A DNA stretch of 32,760 nucleotides. Origin: Limisphaerales bacterium (GTDB taxonomy: Bacteria > Verrucomicrobiota > Verrucomicrobiia > Limisphaerales > JADLHS01). Below, one piece after another: positions 5,981 to 23,126 of this stretch (position 1 is its first letter; each line of letters begins with the position of its first letter). Where the stretch lies: the NCBI GenBank assembly GCA_020848635.1, contig JADLHS010000155.1, forward strand, positions 1 through 32,760, read 5' to 3'. A program made the position numbers and the translations under genes. Below the pieces are notes generated by a model. The model made no database searches, was not told the origin of the DNA, and was given only the letters and a program-made list of their open reading frames with translations.

Positions 5981-6106
5981 GGCGGAGATTAGCGTTTTGG
6001 ATTCGGGAAAGCATCTGAAAATGCCGGCGCGGCCAAACGCCGGCTTGACAGGTTTTAAGAATTGGCAAATGCTCGCCGGGCCGAACGTTACGTCACCAAG
6101 ACCAAA

Positions 6107-7453
6107 ATGAAAAAGCACTCTCCCAGCCCCTCCAGACTTATCCCTCATGTGAAACTGCTCTCGGTCGCCACACTGCTGGTGGCCGTTCTGACATCGTGTG
6201 TTTCCACCCAGCGCGAGCCGGGGTTCGTTTCCCTCTTCGACGGCAAAACGCTGGCGGGGTGGACGCTCGTCGGGAAGCACGGCGCCGGCTACGGCGTGAC
6301 CAACGGGGTCATTTACTGCGCTCCGGGTGGCGGGGGGAACCTGCTCACGGACCAGGAATTTGACGATTTCATCCTGCGCTTCGAGTTCAAACTGGAGGAT
6401 GGCTCTAACAACGGCATCGGCATCCGCGCGCCGCTGGGGGGCGATGTGGCCTACCTCGGCATGGAGATTCAGATTCTCGAGGATGGCGCGGCCGACCGTG
6501 GCAAGTGGGGCAAGCTGCACGCGGAACAATATCATGGTTCCATTTATGGCGTCGTGGCCGCCAAGCGCGGGGCGCTCAAACCGCCGGGCGAGTGGAACAC
6601 CGAGGAAATCACGGCCCAAGGCCGGCAGATCAAGGTGGTAGTCAACGGCAAGACCATCGTGGATGCCAATCTCAACGATGTCACGGACCCGGAGATTATT
6701 CGTCAACATCCTGGGTTGTTCCGCGAGCGGGGGCGCATCGGTTTCCTCGGCCATGGCGATTACCTGGAGTTCCGCAACCTTCGCATCAAGGAACTGCCCC
6801 GCCAGGAAAAGGACAACTCGGCGCCGGAGGGGTTCACAGCGCTGTTCAACGGGAAGAGTCTCGATGGTTGGAAGGGGTTGTTAAAAGGTCCCAACGATAA
6901 TCCCATCAAGCGCGCCGCGCTGACGCGGGAACAAAGGGCCGAGGCGCAAAAGGAAGCCGACGAAGACATGCGTGCCCATTGGCGCGTGGAGAATGGCGAA
7001 TTCGTGTTCGATGGCAAGGGCCGCAGCCTCTGCACGGCCAAGGACTACGCGAATTTTGAGCTGCTCGTGGATTGGAAAATTACGGAGCATGGGGACAGCG
7101 GGATTTACCTGCGCGGCTCGCCGCAGGTCTCCATCTGGGATCCGTTCACCCTGCCCACCAAGCACGGCAGCGAAGTCGGTTCCGGTGCGTTTTACAACAA
7201 CCAGAAGAATCCGAGCAAGCCGCTCTTGGTCGCCGACAAACCCATCGGTCAGTGGAATCGCTTTCGCATCCTGATGGTGGGCGAGCGAGCCCATATTTTT
7301 CTCAATGGCCAACTCGTGACGCGGGATACAGTGCTGGATAATTATTGGGATCGGGCCCTGCCGATTTTCCCGAGCGGCCAGATCGAATTGCAGAACCATG
7401 GTGATGTGCTGTGGTTCAAGAACATCTATATCCGCGAACTGCCAACCAAATAA
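6107..7453 (+). CDS. Lipoprotein with two DUF1080 (3-keto-disaccharide hydrolase/LamG-like) domains
   Basis: The start was set at ATG 6107 because it opens a lipoprotein signal (lipobox LTSC, C31); an in-frame ATG at 6062 would add 15 unlikely residues. The 448-residue product has two DUF1080 domains: the first from GFVSLFDGKTLAGWTL to FRNLRIKELP, the second from GFTALFNGKSLDGWKG to FKNIYIRELP. Both end in the family's short strand. The family has a concanavalin-like beta-sandwich fold and some members cleave 3-keto-glycosides made by Gfo/Idh/MocA oxidoreductases. That fits the context, since two such oxidoreductases follow, the first after only five bases. The protein should be anchored at the outer or inner membrane. 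The substrate cannot be read from sequence. A second tandem-DUF1080 protein lies at 21858-23126. Confidence 0.92.
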   Translation: MKKHSPSPSRLIPHVKLLSVATLLVAVLTSCVSTQREPGFVSLFDGKTLAGWTLVGKHGAGYGVTNGVIYCAPGGGGNLLTDQEFDDFILRFEFKLEDGSNNGIGIRAPLGGDVAYLGMEIQILEDGAADRGKWGKLHAEQYHGSIYGVVAAKRGALKPPGEWNTEEITAQGRQIKVVVNGKTIVDANLNDVTDPEIIRQHPGLFRERGRIGFLGHGDYLEFRNLRIKELPRQEKDNSAPEGFTALFNGKSLDGWKGLLKGPNDNPIKRAALTREQRAEAQKEADEDMRAHWRVENGEFVFDGKGRSLCTAKDYANFELLVDWKITEHGDSGIYLRGSPQVSIWDPFTLPTKHGSEVGSGAFYNNQKNPSKPLLVADKPIGQWNRFRILMVGERAHIFLNGQLVTRDTVLDNYWDRALPIFPSGQIELQNHGDVLWFKNIYIRELPTK

Positions 7454-13118: not shown

Positions 13119-13883
13119 TCAGTTGAACTTCATGGCCTGCTCCACTTCACGGAGACCGCGGGTCATAGTGAGGCGCTTGCCGTTTTGGAGGAGGACCACA
13201 TGCTCGCCTTTGAAATGCGGCTGCAGTTCCTTGATGTGGTTAAGATTCACGATGGTCGAGCGGCTGATGCGCAGGAAATGAGCCGGATTGAGCCGTGATT
13301 CCAAGGCGTTGAGGGTGTCACGCAGGATATGCGTATCCTTGCCAGATTGGACGGCGACGTAATTGCCAGCGGACTCGATGCAGTCAATCTGCTCGGTTTT
13401 CAAGAAGACAATTTTGTCGGTCGTCTTGAACGAAAGCCGAGTGAGATAGGGGCTGGTCCCCGATTGCCGGCCCAACAATTCCAGCACGGCGGCCACGGCG
13501 GTGTCGTCTTTCGCCGGTGCCGCAAGCCGCTCACGGGCGCGCTGGACGGTCGCTTGGAATCGGGTCGGCGTGAAGGGTTTGAGCAGGTAATCAAGCGCAC
13601 TCACCTCAAATGCGTGCAAAGCGTGTTGATCATAAGCTGTGACAAAGATCACCACAGGCATCTGCCCGGGCGGAATCGCCGCCAGCAGGCCGAAGCCGTC
13701 CATCTCCGGCATCTGCACGTCCAGAAACAGCAGGTCGGGTTGCGCGCGCTGAATGACGGCAAGTGCTTCCGGGCCGTTGCCACACTCGGCGAGTATTTCC
13801 ACGTCCTTTTCCTCGGCGAGCAGCAGGCGAATGCGTTGCCGGGCGAGTGGTTCGTCGTCAACAATGAGCGCGCGGATTTTCAT
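13119..13883 (-). CDS. LytTR-family response regulator
   Basis: The 254-residue protein has a receiver domain (1-120) with the acidic pair D9/D10, the phosphoacceptor D55 in LLFLDVQMPEMDG, a threonine in VTAYD and the conserved lysine in LLKPF. A LytTR DNA-binding domain follows at about 145-254, with IDCIESAGNYVAV, HFLRISRSTIVNLNHI and a terminal GKRLTMTRGLREV. It should bind promoter direct repeats when phosphorylated by the kinase encoded just upstream. Its ATG overlaps the kinase stop by four bases, so the pair is translationally coupled. Its target genes cannot be inferred from the window. Confidence 0.97.
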   Translation of the reverse strand: MKIRALIVDDEPLARQRIRLLLAEEKDVEILAECGNGPEALAVIQRAQPDLLFLDVQMPEMDGFGLLAAIPPGQMPVVIFVTAYDQHALHAFEVSALDYLLKPFTPTRFQATVQRARERLAAPAKDDTAVAAVLELLGRQSGTSPYLTRLSFKTTDKIVFLKTEQIDCIESAGNYVAVQSGKDTHILRDTLNALESRLNPAHFLRISRSTIVNLNHIKELQPHFKGEHVVLLQNGKRLTMTRGLREVEQAMKFN

Positions 13884-15088
13884 GACGGCTTGGGCAGGAC
13901 AGGAGAGGAAGGGGTTTCGGTGTGGAACGGAATTTCCAGTTCGGCGACACCGCCGCCGCCGGGATCGTTTTGCAACGTGAAACGATGACGGTTCGGATAC
14001 AGGCTTTGCAGGCGGGCACGGGTGTTGGCCAGCCCAATGCCCGTTTGGCCAACGCTAGCGCCGTAAGCGCCCGGGGGCAGCCCGATGCCGGTATCACGGA
14101 TAGAGATGCGCAGGGTGTCGCCAACCCGCTGGGCGCTGATGCCGATGATGCCCAGTGCGAGCTTGGGTTCAAGGCCGTGGCGGATCGCGTTTTCGACCAG
14201 TGGTTGTAGCACTAGCGCCGGAACCAGCGCGGCCAGAGTTTCCGGGCTGACGCTTTGCTCGACGCGCAGGCGGTCCCCAAAACGAGTTTGTTCAATTCTC
14301 AGGTAGCAATTGAGAAAATGCAGTTCGCGCGCGAGGGGGATTTCCTGTTCGGTCGCGCTGTCCAGTGAAAGCCGCAGCAACTCGCTGAGACCGCCGATCA
14401 TTTCGTCGGCGGCCCGGGCATCCGTATAAACCAGCGTGGAAATTGCATTGAGGGTGTTAAAGAGGAAATGCGGATGCAACTGCATCCGCAGCGATTGCAG
14501 CCGCGCCTGGGCAAGGCTCGCTTCGAGTTCGAGTTCGTGGCGTTCACGCTGTCGCGAGCGTCGGGAAAAAACGTAGGCATGGCCGAGGCTGGCAAGGATG
14601 AAGTAGATGGGCAGGTTGAACCGGACGCGAAACCAGAAGGGCGGCGATTGGCGTCCGCGGCCCGGCAGTCTTTGCCCGGCTTGGAAAGGCTCGGACATTG
14701 CCGGCCGCCCCCGCTCAGGTGGCGGCCCGTAGGATGGCTCAGTCCCCTCGCGGGCCCAGGGCGGCGGCGCCGGCGGAGCGATACGATCTTCCAGCGATAC
14801 GCAGATCAGCACCGCGCCAGCGCACGCCAATGCGTGGAGCAGAGTACGCCCGGCCCAGCCGACCCTTTCGATGGGGAAACGGAATGTGAACGCGAGGATG
14901 AGCGGCGATAGAAATGTCCAAGGCAGCCATTGATTCAACGTCATCTGAAACGCCTCCTTCCATTGGAAAGCGCCGCTGATGAAATGCTGGGTGGCGATTA
15001 CGGAGAGGAAGAAACTCCAAAACGCCACGAAGCCAGCGACCCAATAAAGGCATCGTCGCAGCGAGAGATTGGGAAGCGCGGGCTTCAT
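13880..15088 (-). CDS. LytS/YehU-type sensor histidine kinase
   Basis: The 402-residue kinase has about four membrane segments (near 14-34, 52-70, 80-98 and 154-172). Between the third and fourth lies a long proline/arginine/glycine-rich loop (about 103-150), with PPAPPPWAREG and GPPPERGRP, that could be the sensing part. A short coiled-coil (RQRERHELELEASLAQARLQ) leads into the His_kinase domain, where the phosphoacceptor is H207 in QLHPHFLFNTLNA. The ATP-binding half shows LQPLVENAIRHG (N box), RDTGIGLP (G1) and TGIGLANTRARL (G2). All motifs are present, so it should be active on the LytTR regulator whose start overlaps its stop. The signal sensed is unknown. Confidence 0.96.
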   Translation of the reverse strand: MKPALPNLSLRRCLYWVAGFVAFWSFFLSVIATQHFISGAFQWKEAFQMTLNQWLPWTFLSPLILAFTFRFPIERVGWAGRTLLHALACAGAVLICVSLEDRIAPPAPPPWAREGTEPSYGPPPERGRPAMSEPFQAGQRLPGRGRQSPPFWFRVRFNLPIYFILASLGHAYVFSRRSRQRERHELELEASLAQARLQSLRMQLHPHFLFNTLNAISTLVYTDARAADEMIGGLSELLRLSLDSATEQEIPLARELHFLNCYLRIEQTRFGDRLRVEQSVSPETLAALVPALVLQPLVENAIRHGLEPKLALGIIGISAQRVGDTLRISIRDTGIGLPPGAYGASVGQTGIGLANTRARLQSLYPNRHRFTLQNDPGGGGVAELEIPFHTETPSSPVLPKPS

Positions 15089-15206: not shown

Positions 15207-15716
15207 TCATTGCGGAGGGGCGTCACCGACGCCCGGGGGCGGACCAGGTGGGCCGCCGCGCGGTCCGGAGGGTTTCGGCAATTTCAAGCTTCCATCCGCG
15301 AGCGCTGCTGTGACGGCAGCTTGTTCGGTGGTGTCAAGCTGGCCGTCGTTGTTGAAGTCGTATGGGGCGATCACGTCAAACAGCGCAGCCATCTGCCTCG
15401 TGAGGTGACTGGCCATTTCGGCATTCGGCGTGGGCGGGGTTTGCCCTTCACGGCCGCGGGGCGGGATTGGCGGCTGGGGTTTGCCATCCACGAGAGCTTG
15501 CGCCAGGGCCGATTGTTCAGCGGCGTCGAGCTTGCCGTCCTGATTGGTGTCGTACGACACCAATGCGGCGTAGTTGGTTGACAGGGTGGCTGCATTCGGA
15601 GGCGCGGGTCGGTTGTGGGGACCACCGTTGCCGTGGTCACCGGGTTGCGCGAATGCCGACGTGCCGAGCGCGGCGCCAAGCGCGATGGCCAAGGCGATGA
15701 TTTTGCGAGGTTTCAT
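15207..15716 (-). CDS. Secreted EF-hand domain protein
   Basis: The start at 15716 was chosen because AAGGA lies just upstream and the ATG opens a signal peptide (MKPRKIIALAIALGAALGTS, cut near AFAQ); the frame is open further upstream but with no sensible sequence. The 169-residue product has two EF-hand loops, DTNQDGKLDAAE and DFNNDGQLDTTE, each with the usual calcium-coordinating spacing, separated by a proline-rich linker. The C-terminus is glycine/proline-rich (GPRGGPPGPPPGVG). It probably binds calcium outside the cytoplasm; it has no catalytic domain. The same combination of EF-hand and Gly/Pro-rich tracts appears in the CotH protein at 19839, so the two may work in the same compartment. 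It is transcribed toward the histidine kinase but a terminator intervenes. Confidence 0.88.
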   Translation of the reverse strand: MKPRKIIALAIALGAALGTSAFAQPGDHGNGGPHNRPAPPNAATLSTNYAALVSYDTNQDGKLDAAEQSALAQALVDGKPQPPIPPRGREGQTPPTPNAEMASHLTRQMAALFDVIAPYDFNNDGQLDTTEQAAVTAALADGSLKLPKPSGPRGGPPGPPPGVGDAPPQ

Positions 15717-16072
15717 ATTTTCCTTTTGTTTTTTGTTGGTTGTTTTCTTTGACCGCATCGGTTTCTGCGATGCTCGATCTTCATGATGACAATAACCGCG
15801 GCGCTCAAATCGCTTCCCCACAATAGATGAACGCGGGTTTGGGCGTGACCAACGCCGAATAATGCGAGATGAAGTCCGGGTTCGCTCCGGGTGCAAACCA
15901 GGGAAATACAATTTCGCTCAAGTTCTCGCGGCGGACGCCGACAAGCTCACTGGGAGTGGACCGGATCTTTCGATCCGCAAGTGCGGCCTTTTGCTTACAG
16001 TGATCGCAGATAGCAAATGACGCACGACGCGGAACCTCGCCGTGCATAAGCAGTGAAATGCAATTCGTACTT
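15717..16072. other. Divergent intergenic region without a confident gene
   Basis: These 356 bases separate the EF-hand gene (-) from the repeat protein (+) and should hold both promoters. A six-base hairpin CGGATC/GATCCG sits at 15962-15977. A minus-strand frame of 99 codons (16104-15805) contains one CxxC and no recognisable domain, and its 5' part overlaps the repeat-protein gene; it is not called as a gene. No clear promoter pair was identified. Confidence 0.5.
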
Positions 16073-16813
16073 ATGAACATCTCCGGCCTATCGTCCACCA
16101 ACAACTATTTCAGTCAACTCACTTCCGCCACTGCGCGCAGCGTTGGCAGTTCCACCCAGAGGGCTGCTCCCTCCAATCCCCTGGCAGACTCGCTGAATTC
16201 GCTGGCGAGCGCACTGGAGTCAGGCGACACCGAAACCGCCAACAGCGTGTTTTCGGATATTCTGGCCCACGCGCCGAAAGCCCACACCGACCAATCCAGC
16301 AGCGACTCCGATCCCGGCGCCAAGATTGGTGAATTCCTGGCTTCACTCCAGAGCGCGCTGGCGAGCGGCGACACGGCTTCAGCGGAGAGTGCGGTTGCTT
16401 CGCTCAAGGATTTCCTCGCGGCGAATCCGCCGCCCGAGCCTCCCGGTGGGGCCGGTGGCGCGGAGGGGCGGGCGAATCCGCTGGCCAAGGCGCTGGACGC
16501 GATCGAGCAGGCACTGAACTCCGGCGACACGGCCACGGCCCAAAGTACGTTGGCTGACCTTCTCGCGCACGCGCCAAAGCAGCACGAGTCGAACAGCGAT
16601 ACTAGTGCTGTCATCGGGGACAACGTCTCGGAGTTTTTGAAATCCCTCCAAATCGCCTTGTCGTCGAATGACACTTTGTTGGCCCAAAGCCTTACGGCTT
16701 CGCTCCAGGATTATCTCGCCGCGCACCCACCGCAACCGCCTGGTTTGAGCACTTACTCGACCGACGGCACATTGGCCTCCAGTTCCGTCTCGTCATTCAG
16801 CGTGCTGGCCTGA
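16073..16813 (+). CDS. Helical repeat protein with an exact 50-residue period
   Basis: The start at 16073 (MNISGLSSTNNYFSQL) is preferred over ATG 16058 because small proteins of this type, including the FlxA-like gene nearby, begin with a similar MNI..S segment. The 246-residue protein has four related units beginning at residues 35, 85, 135 and 185: each has a helix ending in ALxSGDT (or SNDT), then a second helix, then LAHAPK or LAANPP/LAAHPP. Units 1 and 3 resemble each other (ending HAPKxH), as do 2 and 4 (ending NPP/HPP), so a 100-residue block appears to have been duplicated. No signal peptide or membrane segment is seen. The helix-pair pattern suggests a protein-binding scaffold; function is unknown. 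A hairpin follows its stop. Confidence 0.75.
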   Translation: MNISGLSSTNNYFSQLTSATARSVGSSTQRAAPSNPLADSLNSLASALESGDTETANSVFSDILAHAPKAHTDQSSSDSDPGAKIGEFLASLQSALASGDTASAESAVASLKDFLAANPPPEPPGGAGGAEGRANPLAKALDAIEQALNSGDTATAQSTLADLLAHAPKQHESNSDTSAVIGDNVSEFLKSLQIALSSNDTLLAQSLTASLQDYLAAHPPQPPGLSTYSTDGTLASSSVSSFSVLA

Positions 16814-18363: not shown

Positions 18364-19125
18364 ATGTCACCCTCCACTGACCTGCGGGAAAATCGCGAGT
18401 TTGCCTCCGAAATCAAGTTTCTGGTGACGCCGGTAATCGCGGCCCAGATTCGGGACTGGGCGCGTGGTCGGCTGATCTCGGATCCAAACGCCTCGGACGA
18501 ATCAGGGGACGGTTATCAGATCACCAGCCTTTACTTTGACACCGGGCAGTTCGACGTGTTTCAGCGGAAAGGTTCATTCGGCCGCAGCAAGTATCGCATT
18601 CGCCGCTATGGACAAAGCGAGGTCGTGTTCCTGGAGCGCAAACTCAAGACGCGCGGGTTGCTGACCAAGCGCCGCTCCATCGTCAAACTCGAGGAACTCA
18701 AGCGGCTGGCTGGCGAGACGCCCTCGTGGGATTGGCCGGGGTTCTGGTTTCATCGCCGTTTTCTGGCCCGCAGCCTGGGCCCGGTTTGCCAGATTGCGTA
18801 TCATCGGACCGCGCGTGTGGCGATGACCCGTCACGGGCCCATTCGTCTGACGCTGGATGAAAACCCTCGTGCCGTGCCGACGGGCGAGTTGTCGTTTTGC
18901 GAAGACGAAGGCCGATTGCTTTTGCCTGATCAAGTCATCCTGGAGCTGAAATTTCGCTACGAACTGCCTGTTCTGTTCAAGTCGCTGGCCGAGGAATTTG
19001 CTCTGAATTCGCAGCCGGTTTCCAAGTATCGCCTCGCGGTCGCGGCCCTGGGGCTGGGGGCGGCGCCAATTTCCGACAACTCAGCCGCGAGTATGACAGA
19101 TGAATCCCTATGTCTGACTTCTTGA
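18364..19125 (+). CDS. VTC-domain polyphosphate polymerase-like protein
   Basis: The start at ATG 18364 was preferred over a GTG at 18313 because conserved sequence begins soon after it. The 253-residue protein keeps the catalytic signatures of the VTC4 tunnel domain: EIKFL (16-20), SLYFDT (55-60), KYRIRRYG (77-84) with two tunnel arginines, FLERK (89-93), AYHRTARVA (145-153), LELKF (193-197) and SKYR (220-223). In yeast this domain makes polyphosphate from ATP using a divalent metal; bacterial members are less studied. It has no signal or membrane segment and should be cytoplasmic. Its last 16 bases overlap the DUF4956 gene, which implies coupled translation and probably a complex. The fold and motifs are secure; polyphosphate synthesis here is inference. 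Confidence 0.92.
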   Translation: MSPSTDLRENREFASEIKFLVTPVIAAQIRDWARGRLISDPNASDESGDGYQITSLYFDTGQFDVFQRKGSFGRSKYRIRRYGQSEVVFLERKLKTRGLLTKRRSIVKLEELKRLAGETPSWDWPGFWFHRRFLARSLGPVCQIAYHRTARVAMTRHGPIRLTLDENPRAVPTGELSFCEDEGRLLLPDQVILELKFRYELPVLFKSLAEEFALNSQPVSKYRLAVAALGLGAAPISDNSAASMTDESLCLTS

Positions 19126-19796
19126 AAACCCATTTTGTCAATGGGCCAAACATTGAGCCGCTTGATGTGCTGGTTCGACTCTGCCTCGCCCTCGTGCTCG
19201 GCGGCGTGGTCGCGTGGATTTATCGCCGCACCCGCAAGAGCGCTGAGATTTCGTCCTCGTTTCCGGTCACGCTCGTCCTGCTCGCGGTCCTGATCGCGAT
19301 GGTGACCCAGATCGTCGGCGACAACGTGGCCCGCGCCTTCAGTCTGGTGGGCGCGCTTTCCATCGTGCGCTTCCGGACCGTGGTGCGAGATACGCAAGAC
19401 ACCGCCTATGTGATTTTTGCCGTGGTCGTCGGGATGGCGGCGGGGGCCAATAATCTGTGGGTGGGCCTGATTGGCATTGGCGTGGTCGGGCTGGCGGCTT
19501 ATTTGATGATGGCGCGCGCCCAGGTGTTCAGCGCTTCGCAGCCGGCATTTCTGCTGAGCTTGCGCGTCGGACTCGGTCTCGATCTCAACAAACTTCTCGG
19601 CGGCGCGCTCGATGCGCATTTGCAAGAACGGGAGTTGATGTCGGTGGCCACCGCGAAGCAAGGTGTGTCGCTGGATGTCACCTACGAAACGCGGCTTTGC
19701 CCCGGCGGTTCGGCGGACGAACTGGTGAAGGCTTTGAACCGGATCGAAGGCGTTCAAAGCGTCGAACTTCGCCGGCGCGAATTCATTCGGGACTGA
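19110..19796 (+). CDS. DUF4956 membrane protein
   Basis: The 228-residue protein has about four membrane segments (20-38, 51-70, 97-112, 115-135). The family's signature lies between the second and third: ARAFSLVGALSIVRFRT then VVRDTQDTAYVIFA (74-104), rich in conserved arginines that could line an anion path. A soluble C-terminal domain (about 145-228), with a pattern like small ferredoxin-like or ACT-like domains (DELVKALNRIEGVQSVELR), follows. Function is not established; the family is regularly found beside VTC-domain and CotH genes. Its start lies inside the VTC gene and CotH follows after 42 bases. A role as the membrane partner of the polyphosphate polymerase is a reasonable inference. 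Confidence 0.93.
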   Translation: MSDFLKTHFVNGPNIEPLDVLVRLCLALVLGGVVAWIYRRTRKSAEISSSFPVTLVLLAVLIAMVTQIVGDNVARAFSLVGALSIVRFRTVVRDTQDTAYVIFAVVVGMAAGANNLWVGLIGIGVVGLAAYLMMARAQVFSASQPAFLLSLRVGLGLDLNKLLGGALDAHLQERELMSVATAKQGVSLDVTYETRLCPGGSADELVKALNRIEGVQSVELRRREFIRD

Positions 19797-19838
19797 CAAC
19801 GTAATCGAAACGAGAAGCAGAGTTACATATTTGACCTA

Positions 19839-21587
19839 ATGAAAAATCTCCGACCCCAACTCTTGCTGTGGGCCCTCGCGCTGAGCCTCACGCTCGGCGC
19901 TCTAGCGCAGACGGCTGAAAATTCACCGCCTCGCGAGGGTAGGCCGTTGGGCGAGGGTCATTTTCCACCCGGAGATGGGCCGCCTGACTTTGATGGTCCG
20001 CCGGGATTTGGACCCGGCGGCCCGATGCGGCAGGAAATCAAGCTCGTGCAGCAATTCGACCAGAACCACGACGGGTGGCTCAATCAAGCGGAGCGCAAGG
20101 CCGCGAGGGAATTTCTCGGCCAGGTAGGAACGGGCGGAGGTCGGGGTGGCCCCGGCGGGCGGCGGGGCGGACCAGGATTTGGTGGTCGCGGCGAGTCGCA
20201 GACGCCGCCGCAACCGGGCGCGAAGCTTTCGCCCGCCGCCGTGGCAACATTCACCAATGCCCCGCTCTACGACCTCCAGATACTGCGGACCGTTTTTTTG
20301 GAATTCGAAAACAGCGACTGGGAAAAAGAGCTGGCTGACTTCAAAAACACTGACGTGGAGTTGCCGGCGAAGGTCACAGTGGACGGTAAAACCTACCCGG
20401 ACGTCGGCGTGCATTTTCACGGTATGTCGTCGTTTATGATGGTGGGTGAAGGGCAAAAGCGGTCGCTGGTGCTTTCGTTTGATCTCGTTCATGCGAAGCA
20501 GCAGCTCGGTGGTTACAACAAGCTCAATCTGCTCAACGCGCACGAGGACCCGACCTTCTTGCGCACTGTGCTCTCCTTGCAGATCGCCCGCGAGTATATC
20601 CCGACCCCGAAGGCCAATTTCATGCGGGTCGTTATCAATGGCGAATCCTGGGGCATCTACATCAACCAGCAGCATTTCAACAAGGACTTCCTGAAGGAAG
20701 CCTTCGGCACGACCAAAGGCGCCCGCTGGAAAGTTCCCGGCAGTCCGAACGGACGCGGTAGCCTGGCGTATCTCGGCGAGGATGTCTCGGCCTACCAGCG
20801 CATTTATGAAATCAAGAGCAAGGACGACCCCAAAGCGTGGGCCGACCTCGCCCACCTCTGCAAGGTGTTGAACGAAACGCCGGCGGACCAACTGATCGCA
20901 GCTCTCACCCCGTTGCTCGACATTGACGCCGCGCTGAAGTTCCTTGCGTGGGACAATGCCCTCGTCAACGGCGACGGCTACTGGACGCGCACGAGCGATT
21001 ACGATATTTTCGAAGACGGCCAGGGCCGCTTCCACATTATTCCGTACGATGCGAACGAGACCTTCAGTTCGGGCGGCGGCCCCGGTGGTCCGGGACGTCG
21101 CGGCGGATCGGGCTTGGGTGGCGGGCCCGGCAGGAGGCCGGGATTCGCTGGAACAAATACCAGCGGCATGAGACCTGACATTGCCGGCCGGCGGGGTGGC
21201 AGGCCGGGCGGCGGCGTTGAACTCGACCCGCTTGCGGTTGCGAACGATGCCAGCAAACCGTTGATCGCGAAACTCCTGGCCGTGCCCGAACTACGGGCGC
21301 GCTATCTCGGATATGTGCGGGCCATCGCCGAGAAATGGCTCGACTGGAACAACCTCGGGCCGCTCGCGCAGCAATACCAGACGCTCATCACCGCAGAGAT
21401 CAAGGCCGACACGCGGAAGCTGGATTCCACGGAAGCTTTTTTGAACAGCCTTGCCGGCGACGCCCTAATCGCGCCGGTACCTGGGCGCGGTCCGCAGAAT
21501 TCCAGCCTGAAGCGCTTCGCCGAAAAACGGCGGGCTTTTCTGCTGAACTACAAACCGGTTGATTCCACAAAACCAGCCACCCCATGA
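19839..21587 (+). CDS. Exported CotH-type protein kinase with EF-hand
   Basis: The 582-residue protein has a signal peptide (1-23), a Gly/Pro-rich segment, one EF-hand with canonical spacing (D74, N76, D78, E85), a second Gly/Arg-rich segment (99-118) and a CotH kinase domain from about 143. CotH is an atypical kinase that phosphorylates spore-coat proteins in Bacillus. Family features seen are VHFHGMSSF (191-199), KLNLLNAHEDPTFLR (228-242), NGESWGIYINQQHFNKDFL (267-285) and the metal-site region HIIPYDANETF (399-409). A glycine/arginine-rich insert (411-459) directly follows that motif, inside the domain. As the kinase is exported while ATP is cytoplasmic, its phosphate donor is an open question, and the VTC gene in the same operon makes polyphosphate a candidate. 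No strong ribosome binding site precedes the ATG. Confidence 0.92.
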   Translation: MKNLRPQLLLWALALSLTLGALAQTAENSPPREGRPLGEGHFPPGDGPPDFDGPPGFGPGGPMRQEIKLVQQFDQNHDGWLNQAERKAAREFLGQVGTGGGRGGPGGRRGGPGFGGRGESQTPPQPGAKLSPAAVATFTNAPLYDLQILRTVFLEFENSDWEKELADFKNTDVELPAKVTVDGKTYPDVGVHFHGMSSFMMVGEGQKRSLVLSFDLVHAKQQLGGYNKLNLLNAHEDPTFLRTVLSLQIAREYIPTPKANFMRVVINGESWGIYINQQHFNKDFLKEAFGTTKGARWKVPGSPNGRGSLAYLGEDVSAYQRIYEIKSKDDPKAWADLAHLCKVLNETPADQLIAALTPLLDIDAALKFLAWDNALVNGDGYWTRTSDYDIFEDGQGRFHIIPYDANETFSSGGGPGGPGRRGGSGLGGGPGRRPGFAGTNTSGMRPDIAGRRGGRPGGGVELDPLAVANDASKPLIAKLLAVPELRARYLGYVRAIAEKWLDWNNLGPLAQQYQTLITAEIKADTRKLDSTEAFLNSLAGDALIAPVPGRGPQNSSLKRFAEKRRAFLLNYKPVDSTKPATP

Positions 21588-21619: not shown

Positions 21620-21655
21620 TGCCGGCAAAGTGCTGCGGGTCAGGGCCCGCCGGCA
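21620..21655. repeat. Small inverted repeat downstream of the CotH gene
   Basis: Seven-base perfect arms, TGCCGGC (21620-21626) and GCCGGCA (21649-21655), enclose 22 bases. It lies 33 bases after the CotH stop and before a much longer hairpin. No T tract follows on the plus strand. It may be part of the same repeat or a weak transcript end. Confidence 0.35.
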
Positions 21656-21686
21656 CACCGCGGCTGGGACTTTTCATAAAATTCGT

Positions 21687-21753
21687 AGCCGCCGACGTGA
21701 GGAGGCGGAGGCAGTGCGCGTGGCAGCAGGTCCGTTTTCTTGCGTCGGCGGCT
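21687..21753. repeat. 23-base-pair hairpin with G-U pairs, possible dispersed repeat or structured RNA
   Basis: Arms at 21687-21709 and 21731-21753 pair without interruption if G-U pairs are allowed: the outer 11 pairs are Watson-Crick (AGCCGCCGACG/CGTCGGCGGCT), the next 12 include six G-U pairs, and the loop is 21 bases. All six deviations from a perfect palindrome keep pairing only in plus-strand RNA, which points to RNA. It lies in the 270-base gap between CotH and the second DUF1080 gene. The left-arm sequence resembles a repeat I recall from verrucomicrobial genomes; that is unverified. Confidence 0.55.
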
Positions 21754-21857
21754 CCGGACTCTCGGCGCTTTATGCGGCCTGTGAAATATCCGGGTTGGTC
21801 TTCTCTTCCCGGGTTTGGCTTGTTATTTTCATCAAGGCGATGTTTCCTACGGTCACC

Positions 21858-23126
21858 ATGAATCCATTTCCAATCCGACTCAAGCCAGACTCCGGCCATT
21901 GGTTGACGCTTCCGTTCGCCGCCCTGCTCAGCCTGGCTTTCGCGGCGACCGCCCAAACGGAGGACCTGGCGCTGATCACAACCCGTGATCTCCAACCCAT
22001 TTTCAACGGCAAAAACCTTGACGGCTGGATCCAGCGTGGCGGCAAGGCGAAGTATGCCGTCGAGGATGGCGTCATCGTCGGGACGACCGTCAAAGGCGAA
22101 CCGAACAGTTTTCTTTGCACCCAGAAGGAATACGGGGATTTCTTGCTCGAACTTGAAATCAAGGCGGCCCCGGGCTTGAACTCCGGCGTGCAGGTTCGCA
22201 GTCACTGTTTCGACCATGAGACGACTTATGCTTGGGGCAACTCGCAGATTAACATCCCGGCGGGCCGCGTGCATGGCTACCAGATCGAAGTCGATCATCG
22301 TCCGGAACGCCTTTGGAGCGGGGGCGTTTACGAGGAGGGTCGGCGCGGATGGCTGTTTGATCTGAGCAAAAATAAAACCGGCGGCGCGGCGTTCAAGTTT
22401 GGTGAGTGGAACCATTACCGGATTGTGTGCCAGGGCGGCTCCATCAAGACGTTGATCAACGGCGTACCGGCGGCAGATCTGGTGGACACCGAGACGTTGA
22501 CCGGCTTCATCGGATTGCAGGTGCATGGCGCAAAGGACGAAGGTCTGCAGGTGCGCTTCCGCAACATTCGGTTGCAGGACCTGGGCCGGCACGAGTGGAA
22601 GCCGATGTGGGACGGCCGGACTTTCAACGGCGCACACTTGATCGGCAAAGGCGATTGGAAGATCACGGACGGCGTCATTCACGCCACGCACGCCAAAGAC
22701 GAAAGGGAATTCGGACACCTGGTGACCGATCAGGTCTTCTCCGATTTCACGGTGCGCTTGAAATACAAGGCGGTGAAGGGCAACAGCGGGCTGTACTTTC
22801 GCATCGAGGAAAGTGGTTTCAGCGGGGTTTCCGGCTTCCAGGCGGAGATTGACGCGGAGAAAGACGCGGGCGGACTTTACGAAACAAATGGGCGCGCGTG
22901 GGTCAGCCAACCAGCCGCCGCCGACGGGAAGAAATGGTTCCGACCCCAGGAGTGGAACACCATGACGGTGGCCGCGCACGGCAAACGCATCACCGTGGTT
23001 GTGAACGGTTATCAATCAGCGGAGTTGCTCAACGACCCGGGCCGCACGGAAGGCCGGTTCGCACTGCAAGTTCATGGCGGGCAGGATGTGGAGGTTTATT
23101 TCAAGGATTTGGAGATTCTGGAATAA
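21858..23126 (+). CDS. Exported protein with two DUF1080 domains
   Basis: The frame is open far upstream, but the start at 21858 (or ATG 21840, six codons earlier) is the one that opens a signal peptide, with hydrophobic FAALLSLAFAATAQ at 20-33. The 422-residue mature part has a first DUF1080 domain from DLQPIFNGKNLDGWIQRGG to VRFRNIRLQDL and a second, shorter one from WKPMWDGRTFNGAHLIG to VYFKDLEIL. The first has the usual CTQKEYGDFLLELEIKAA and GLNSGVQVRS segments. The family has a concanavalin-like fold and includes 3-keto-disaccharide hydrolases. Unlike the paralogue at 6107 there is no lipobox, so it is probably free in the periplasm or secreted. No oxidoreductase is adjacent here; it lies 270 bases after CotH, separated by hairpins, and probably has its own promoter. 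Confidence 0.9.
   Translation: MNPFPIRLKPDSGHWLTLPFAALLSLAFAATAQTEDLALITTRDLQPIFNGKNLDGWIQRGGKAKYAVEDGVIVGTTVKGEPNSFLCTQKEYGDFLLELEIKAAPGLNSGVQVRSHCFDHETTYAWGNSQINIPAGRVHGYQIEVDHRPERLWSGGVYEEGRRGWLFDLSKNKTGGAAFKFGEWNHYRIVCQGGSIKTLINGVPAADLVDTETLTGFIGLQVHGAKDEGLQVRFRNIRLQDLGRHEWKPMWDGRTFNGAHLIGKGDWKITDGVIHATHAKDEREFGHLVTDQVFSDFTVRLKYKAVKGNSGLYFRIEESGFSGVSGFQAEIDAEKDAGGLYETNGRAWVSQPAAADGKKWFRPQEWNTMTVAAHGKRITVVVNGYQSAELLNDPGRTEGRFALQVHGGQDVEVYFKDLEILE

Follow-up and report, generated by a model that had tools for sequence, protein, structure and literature searches.

A VTC-DUF4956-CotH gene module in a Limisphaerales bacterium as a candidate system for polyphosphate synthesis and membrane passage

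Why should a gene for a protein resembling the yeast polyphosphate polymerase Vtc4 stand in one operon with genes for a DUF4956 membrane protein and for an exported kinase-fold protein of the CotH family? The question is raised by a stretch of 32,760 nucleotides from a Limisphaerales bacterium (assembly GCA_020848635.1, contig JADLHS010000155.1; here called the window), in which the three genes follow each other in the order VTC, DUF4956, CotH, all on the + strand and each above its Pfam cut-off. The answer argued for below, to which we give about an even chance, is that VTC and DUF4956 would make and translocate polyphosphate while the third gene would act outside. It is built on the identities of the three proteins, their co-occurrence, intact catalytic residues, the folds and a swap of the third partner among related loci. 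The genes are the following.

18364..19125, + strand: VTC-domain protein with the TTM tunnel fold, a Vtc4-like candidate polyphosphate polymerase (PF09359, E 4.6e-30)
19110..19796, + strand: DUF4956 membrane protein with an MgtC-like helical domain and a cytoplasmic ACT/ferredoxin-like domain, a candidate conduit (PF16316, E 3.7e-11)
19839..21587, + strand: exported CotH-family kinase-fold protein (PF08757, E 4.3e-36)

The DUF4956 start codon (ATG 19110) lies inside the VTC open reading frame (ORF), which ends at 19125, giving the overlap reported by the first-pass annotation of this DNA, here 16 bases long; the longest VTC ORF begins at an alternative start, GTG 18313, and 42 bases separate DUF4956 from CotH. 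In the module no sigma-70-like promoter and no Rfam match were found, PADLOC gave no matches and NCBIfam none for the three proteins. The flanking genes (a two-component pair, an EF-hand protein, a 3-keto-disaccharide hydrolase and others) are not kept around the module in relatives, and therefore the unit is taken to be VTC, DUF4956 and CotH.

The first two genes are closely tied to each other. The window genome has a single match each for VTC and DUF4956 and three for CotH. Of 57 related genomes, 42 carry VTC and precisely these 42 carry DUF4956, the two genes mostly standing next to each other; among 145 genomes sampled across the phylum, 22 besides the window genome have both genes and a single one has VTC only. 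At 80 of 91 DUF4956 loci VTC lies within 3 kb, always on the same strand. For comparison, 120 further DUF4956 loci were fetched, partly from two sets of related genomes and partly from 80 named contigs, yielding 115 distinct DUF4956 sequences including that of the window; these loci were sampled by motif and similarity and their frequencies are not population estimates. The DUF4956 start is upstream of the VTC stop or at most 30 bases past it in 85 of the 91 fetched loci with measurable spacing. No fusion of the two genes was seen in about 120 loci, the apparent long ORFs sitting in other frames. The window genome also has PPK1, and therefore VTC would not serve merely for ordinary storage polyphosphate; separately, genome G199 has PPK1 and a VTC-DUF4956 pair no more than about 6 kb apart on one contig (C38, 277-7829).

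What does the first protein make? Its AlphaFold2 (AF2) model (predicted local distance difference test, pLDDT, 91) finds its nearest fold in the Protein Data Bank (PDB) in Vtc4 (3g3r, Foldseek E 3e-12), and the VTC family profile matches Vtc4 at E 2.7e-15 and Vtc2 and Vtc3 more weakly. Residues K18, R78, R80, K93, K102, Y146, R148, R161, E194, K196 and K221 of the window protein correspond to K200, R264, R266, K281, K294, Y359, R361, R373, E426, K428 and K458 of Vtc4, and all eleven are invariant in 56 VTC homologues; at the Vtc4 S457 position 53 of these have Ser and the other 3 Cys. We take K200, R264, R266, K281, R361, E426 and K458 to be catalytic residues of the yeast enzyme. In tunnel triphosphatases a second metal is held by Glu2, Glu4 and Glu171 (AtTTM3 numbering; PMC4641920); these positions are Ala, Glu and Lys in the window protein, and the retained Glu16, at the Glu4 position, is invariant in all 56 homologues, an oddity for a polymerase. 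Because the Vtc4 residues are invariant and the acids of the triphosphatase metal site are mostly lost, the protein is read, from sequence and model, as polymerase-like. The first-pass annotation was thus right that residues needed for polyphosphate synthesis are kept, and its further claim that the protein makes polyphosphate has good support in the conserved residues and the fold, polyphosphate being the predicted product. A Pfam scan of the module proteins gave no SPX domain match.

The second protein is modelled (AF2, pLDDT 86) with a short N-terminal helix, five main helices of which the third is short, and a C-terminal beta-alpha-beta-beta-alpha-beta domain of the ferredoxin/ACT-like type. 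The earlier description of a four-helix protein therefore holds as to the presence of helices and fails as to the four-helix architecture, to which the model adds the ACT-like domain. With Foldseek the C-terminal domain gives ACT and NikR-type matches, though none with an E below 0.001, and the helices give no match; nor does the PDB contain a protein related in sequence to the membrane part. The program hhalign relates DUF4956 to the MgtC family with a probability of 97.5 over 198 columns (at most 1.3 for reversed and shuffled controls), and 54 of 74 DUF4956 relatives match the MgtC model at E <=1 (best 9.6e-5), the window protein itself scoring 13 bits against PF02308, below the curated threshold of 31.4. 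By profile comparison DUF4956 is a membrane protein of the MgtC superfamily, a kinship at superfamily level only: it has in common with MgtC (PF02308) the helical domain and the C-terminal ACT-like domain but does not show the GIGFLGAG and RG-TT pattern that is invariant in MgtC, and has an RFR motif of its own:

19368..19400, + strand: motif RFRTxxRDxxD (R87, F88, R89, T90, R93, D94, D97), invariant in 74 homologues

This is the conserved arginine-rich motif that had been pointed out earlier, comprising RFR (87-89) with R93, D94 and D97. R87 and R89 are invariant also across 33 more diverse DUF4956 proteins, whose alignment was too divergent for the contig scan, for which the closer set was used. 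RFR is predicted to lie where the third helix ends on the cytoplasmic side, and from the positive-inside rule our reading is that both the motif and the ACT-like domain would face the cytoplasm, where VTC is. No DUF4956 relative was found in viral contigs.

The third gene is where related loci differ. CotH occupies this place in 48 loci with VTC and in 12 without VTC nearby, counts that are lower bounds because the third gene of L095 proved to be a CotH missed by the profile. In 27-28 loci (L123 being weak) the third gene encodes instead a HlyD-family adaptor, directly 3' of DUF4956 in 26-27 of the 115 distinct loci and with the same short overlap in 11 loci of proteobacterial type; HlyD_3 is matched by all 25 aligned adaptors, and at five adaptor loci a TolC/OEP-type gene belongs to the cluster (three were checked, Pfam OEP E ~1e-15). 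At no locus do CotH and adaptor occur together within 2.5 kb. VTC is present in every adaptor-linked form, almost all of these fall in starred clades, and on the DUF4956 tree the adaptor and CotH states require only two changes; one genome (G158) combines three arrangements, with CotH, with the adaptor and as a bare VTC-DUF4956 pair (L071, L073 and L063). Two minimal operons (L164 and L166) consist only of VTC, DUF4956 and the adaptor; no other inner-membrane transporter was seen in them, and DUF4956 is therefore the sole candidate inner-membrane transporter there.

The VTC-DUF4956-HlyD operons L164:9213-11676, L166:9213-11670, L172:8995-13778 and L087:6122-10450, the last two of which also carry a TolC-type gene, come from Pseudomonadota, Myxococcota, Verrucomicrobiota and Kiritimatiellota and are, from their gene content, candidate trans-envelope polyphosphate exporters. 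The HlyD/TolC swap is new here, and as independent comparative evidence it supports outward passage of the VTC product: passage is favoured over a purely cytosolic role because two extracytoplasmic components replace each other as partner. We know of no dedicated bacterial polyphosphate exporter and found none in the open-access literature, where no mention of the adaptor-linked form or of a bacterial VTC exporter was found either.

In the window the exchangeable place is held by CotH, in which two N-terminal features were recognised:

19839..19910, + strand: signal peptide with basic start, hydrophobic core and ALA-Q cleavage-like site (MKNLRPQLLLWALALSLTLGALAQ), read by eye
20058..20093, + strand: EF-hand-like calcium loop DQNHDGWLNQAE, N-terminal to the CotH kinase domain, by sequence pattern

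A crude scan finds a signal-like stretch in 49 of 66 neighbouring CotH ORFs, and the EF-hand-like pattern recurs in 42 of 66 neighbouring CotH proteins, EF-hand matches in the profile search being weak. The window protein matches the solved CotH 5jd9 (phmmer E 8e-7, profile E 3e-37), and its aspartates D379 and D404, the catalytic and metal-binding ones, are kept without exception across 44 aligned CotH proteins. With its signal peptide, PF08757 match and retained aspartates it is, as previously described, an exported kinase-fold protein, and from its sequence a predicted kinase. Bacillus CotH, a spore-coat kinase that uses ATP (PMC7821199), belongs to the same family and keeps the same catalytic aspartates; unlike it, the window protein has a signal peptide and an EF-hand-like loop, and its gene has VTC and DUF4956 as neighbours, not spore-coat genes. 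In many genomes of the same order CotH matches number 20 to 30 or more and often lie in proteins of more than 1000 amino acids (aa), against three matches in the window genome.

How might the parts work together? VTC would be a cytoplasmic, ATP-using polyphosphate polymerase sitting on DUF4956 at the inner membrane, and DUF4956, with RFR at the cytoplasmic end of helix 3, would take the nascent chain across that membrane, its ACT-like domain probably sensing a small ligand and gating the process. Such passage would parallel the yeast VTC complex, in which polyphosphate synthesis is coupled to membrane passage (PMC9911596) by different membrane subunits. The third gene would then set what happens outside: in the window an exported CotH with a calcium-type loop would work in the periplasm or on the cell surface, where it might phosphorylate or organise envelope material next to the polyphosphate, whereas in other lineages HlyD, in some also TolC, would carry the polymer over the outer membrane. 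The wider form of this proposal, that VTC-DUF4956 is a widespread bacterial polyphosphate synthase-translocase with an MgtC-like subunit and interchangeable outer parts for HlyD/TolC release or for CotH in the envelope, we hold tentatively and at a little below an even chance.

Compared with the yeast Vtc4/Vtc3/Vtc1 complex, the module likewise joins a membrane protein to a cytosolic TTM polymerase in which the catalytic residues are the same, but its membrane partner is MgtC-like with an ACT domain rather than a Vtc1-type three-helix subunit, it is without SPX domain, and it has the extra exit partners CotH or HlyD/TolC. With type I-like HlyD-TolC exporters, the relatives' operons have in common the adaptor and TolC-type genes, here following VTC-DUF4956; unlike those systems they have no ABC, RND or MFS transporter, and DUF4956 would be the inner-membrane part.

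Several observations weigh against synthesis coupled to passage. MgtC is a regulator of other proteins and not a known channel (PMC6658541), and DUF4956 has no basic residues inside its membrane helices like the pore lining of yeast TM1; the one exception, R75, is placed by prediction close to where helix 3 ends on the outer side, and the RFR motif on the cytoplasmic side. HlyD adaptors work with many different exporters, so that polyphosphate is a presumed cargo here, and neither adaptor nor TolC-type gene is in the window, where the locus has CotH. In Streptococcus intermedius, changes in aggregation or Pel are reported for deletions of the DUF4956 and CotH genes but not for deletion of the VTC gene (PMC12345266). 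Finally, a VTC match is missing from six genomes with a CotH-DUF4956 pair and from four in which DUF4956 has neither neighbour gene, although these genomes may be incomplete; several DUF4956 proteins from VTC-less genomes are on long branches of the tree. The six CotH-DUF4956 pairs (L127, L128, L132, L136, L156 and L157) are all in genomes with PPK1, which is present in 45 of the 57 relatives, and it is weakly favoured that such genomes feed DUF4956 from PPK1. In Acidobacteriota, a lone DUF4956 is found between aminotransferase-like and LolA-like genes (L120:10001-10672, L142:10001-10675 and L155:7170-7751) in genomes with neither a VTC nor a PPK1 match, possibly a different use of the protein.

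The kinship with MgtC also feeds the strongest competing explanation, which we regard as unlikely though to be taken seriously: DUF4956 would be a membrane-anchored regulator of VTC and not a channel, polyphosphate would stay in the cytosol, and CotH and HlyD/TolC would be separate outputs under the same operon control. DUF4956 is homologous along its whole length to MgtC, which binds and regulates PhoR and the F1Fo ATP synthase (PMC6658541), and the C-terminal domain resembles ligand-binding ACT/NikR domains. However, regulation leaves unexplained that the third gene, whether CotH or HlyD, has its action beyond the inner membrane, and it provides no transporter for the HlyD adaptor to serve, none other being seen in the minimal operons. 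The claim that DUF4956 passes polyphosphate out hence gains comparative support from the HlyD/TolC swap while the regulator alternative still stands beside it.

That the three families belong together was already known, as the first-pass annotation had acknowledged: in streptococci, clostridia and bifidobacteria the pel genes have cotH, a polyphosphate polymerase gene and DUF4956 as neighbours (PMC7112168), similar genes occur in a Clostridium perfringens locus (PMC2879425), and MgtC and ACT domains have been noted for the streptococcal homologue SIR_1592, encoded among the pel accessory genes SIR_1592-1594 (PMC12345266). The module might accordingly serve an envelope polymer or protein, with phosphate or short polyphosphate decorating an exopolysaccharide or surface protein outside, which agrees with the adjoining of pel in Gram-positives and with the altered Pel level and aggregation of S. 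intermedius upon deletion of the DUF4956 and CotH genes (PMC12345266). We consider this rather improbable for the present loci: the window genome has no PelG match and a clear PelG is found in only 2-3 of 57 relatives, against 42 of 57 for the first two genes of the module, which is not contiguous with pelDEADAFG; no pel-like genes are among the Pfam-scanned window ORFs, and no exopolysaccharide genes are recognisable around the operon. The three-gene synteny has been reported as not found outside Pel (PMC12345266); the present loci contradict that statement, the same synteny standing outside pel in Verrucomicrobiota, Acidobacteriota and Planctomycetota.

A bolder version of synthesis and passage was part of the original proposal, namely that CotH, working outside the cell where ATP is scarce, takes its phosphate from exported polyphosphate. 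CotH is indeed exported with its catalytic aspartates kept, the neighbouring genes could plausibly supply polyphosphate outside, and we know of no ATP pool in the periplasm. The donor role is nonetheless unsupported and seems quite improbable, since characterised CotH uses ATP (PMC7821199), polyphosphate donor use is not established in the family, and CotH-DUF4956 persists in VTC-less genomes, though all six have PPK1. Least probable, and in our view very unlikely, is that VTC is a tunnel triphosphatase or other phosphohydrolase in a module unrelated to polyphosphate synthesis. For it speak the common TTM fold and the Glu kept at the AtTTM3 Glu4 position; against it, the loss of the other site-2 ligands, the invariant Vtc4 residues including K458 and K428, and the nearness of Vtc4 in both sequence and fold.

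Around the module, the window encodes on the - strand a histidine kinase/LytTR response regulator pair (13119-15088) and an EF-hand-like exported protein (15207-15911), both upstream of the module and not kept beside it elsewhere. The ORF at 16058-16813 (+) encodes 251 aa, in which two near-repeats (LESGDTETANSVFSDILAHAP-like) stand out and to which Pfam assigns no family with confidence. The window also has genes for two proteins of the 3-keto-disaccharide hydrolase (DUF1080) type, at 6062-7453 and 21630-23126 (+), the second directly 3' of the module, a position not kept in relatives.

Polyphosphate at the surface of bacteria or outside them affects biofilms, immune cells and phosphorus cycling. 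If synthesis by VTC is coupled to passage through DUF4956, the module would be a defined bacterial polyphosphate exporter and would give DUF4956 a function and exported CotH proteins a role, and it would be set apart from Pel, where it has been studied so far. The coupled synthesis and passage of polyphosphate in yeast vacuoles would then also exist in bacteria, with a different membrane part.

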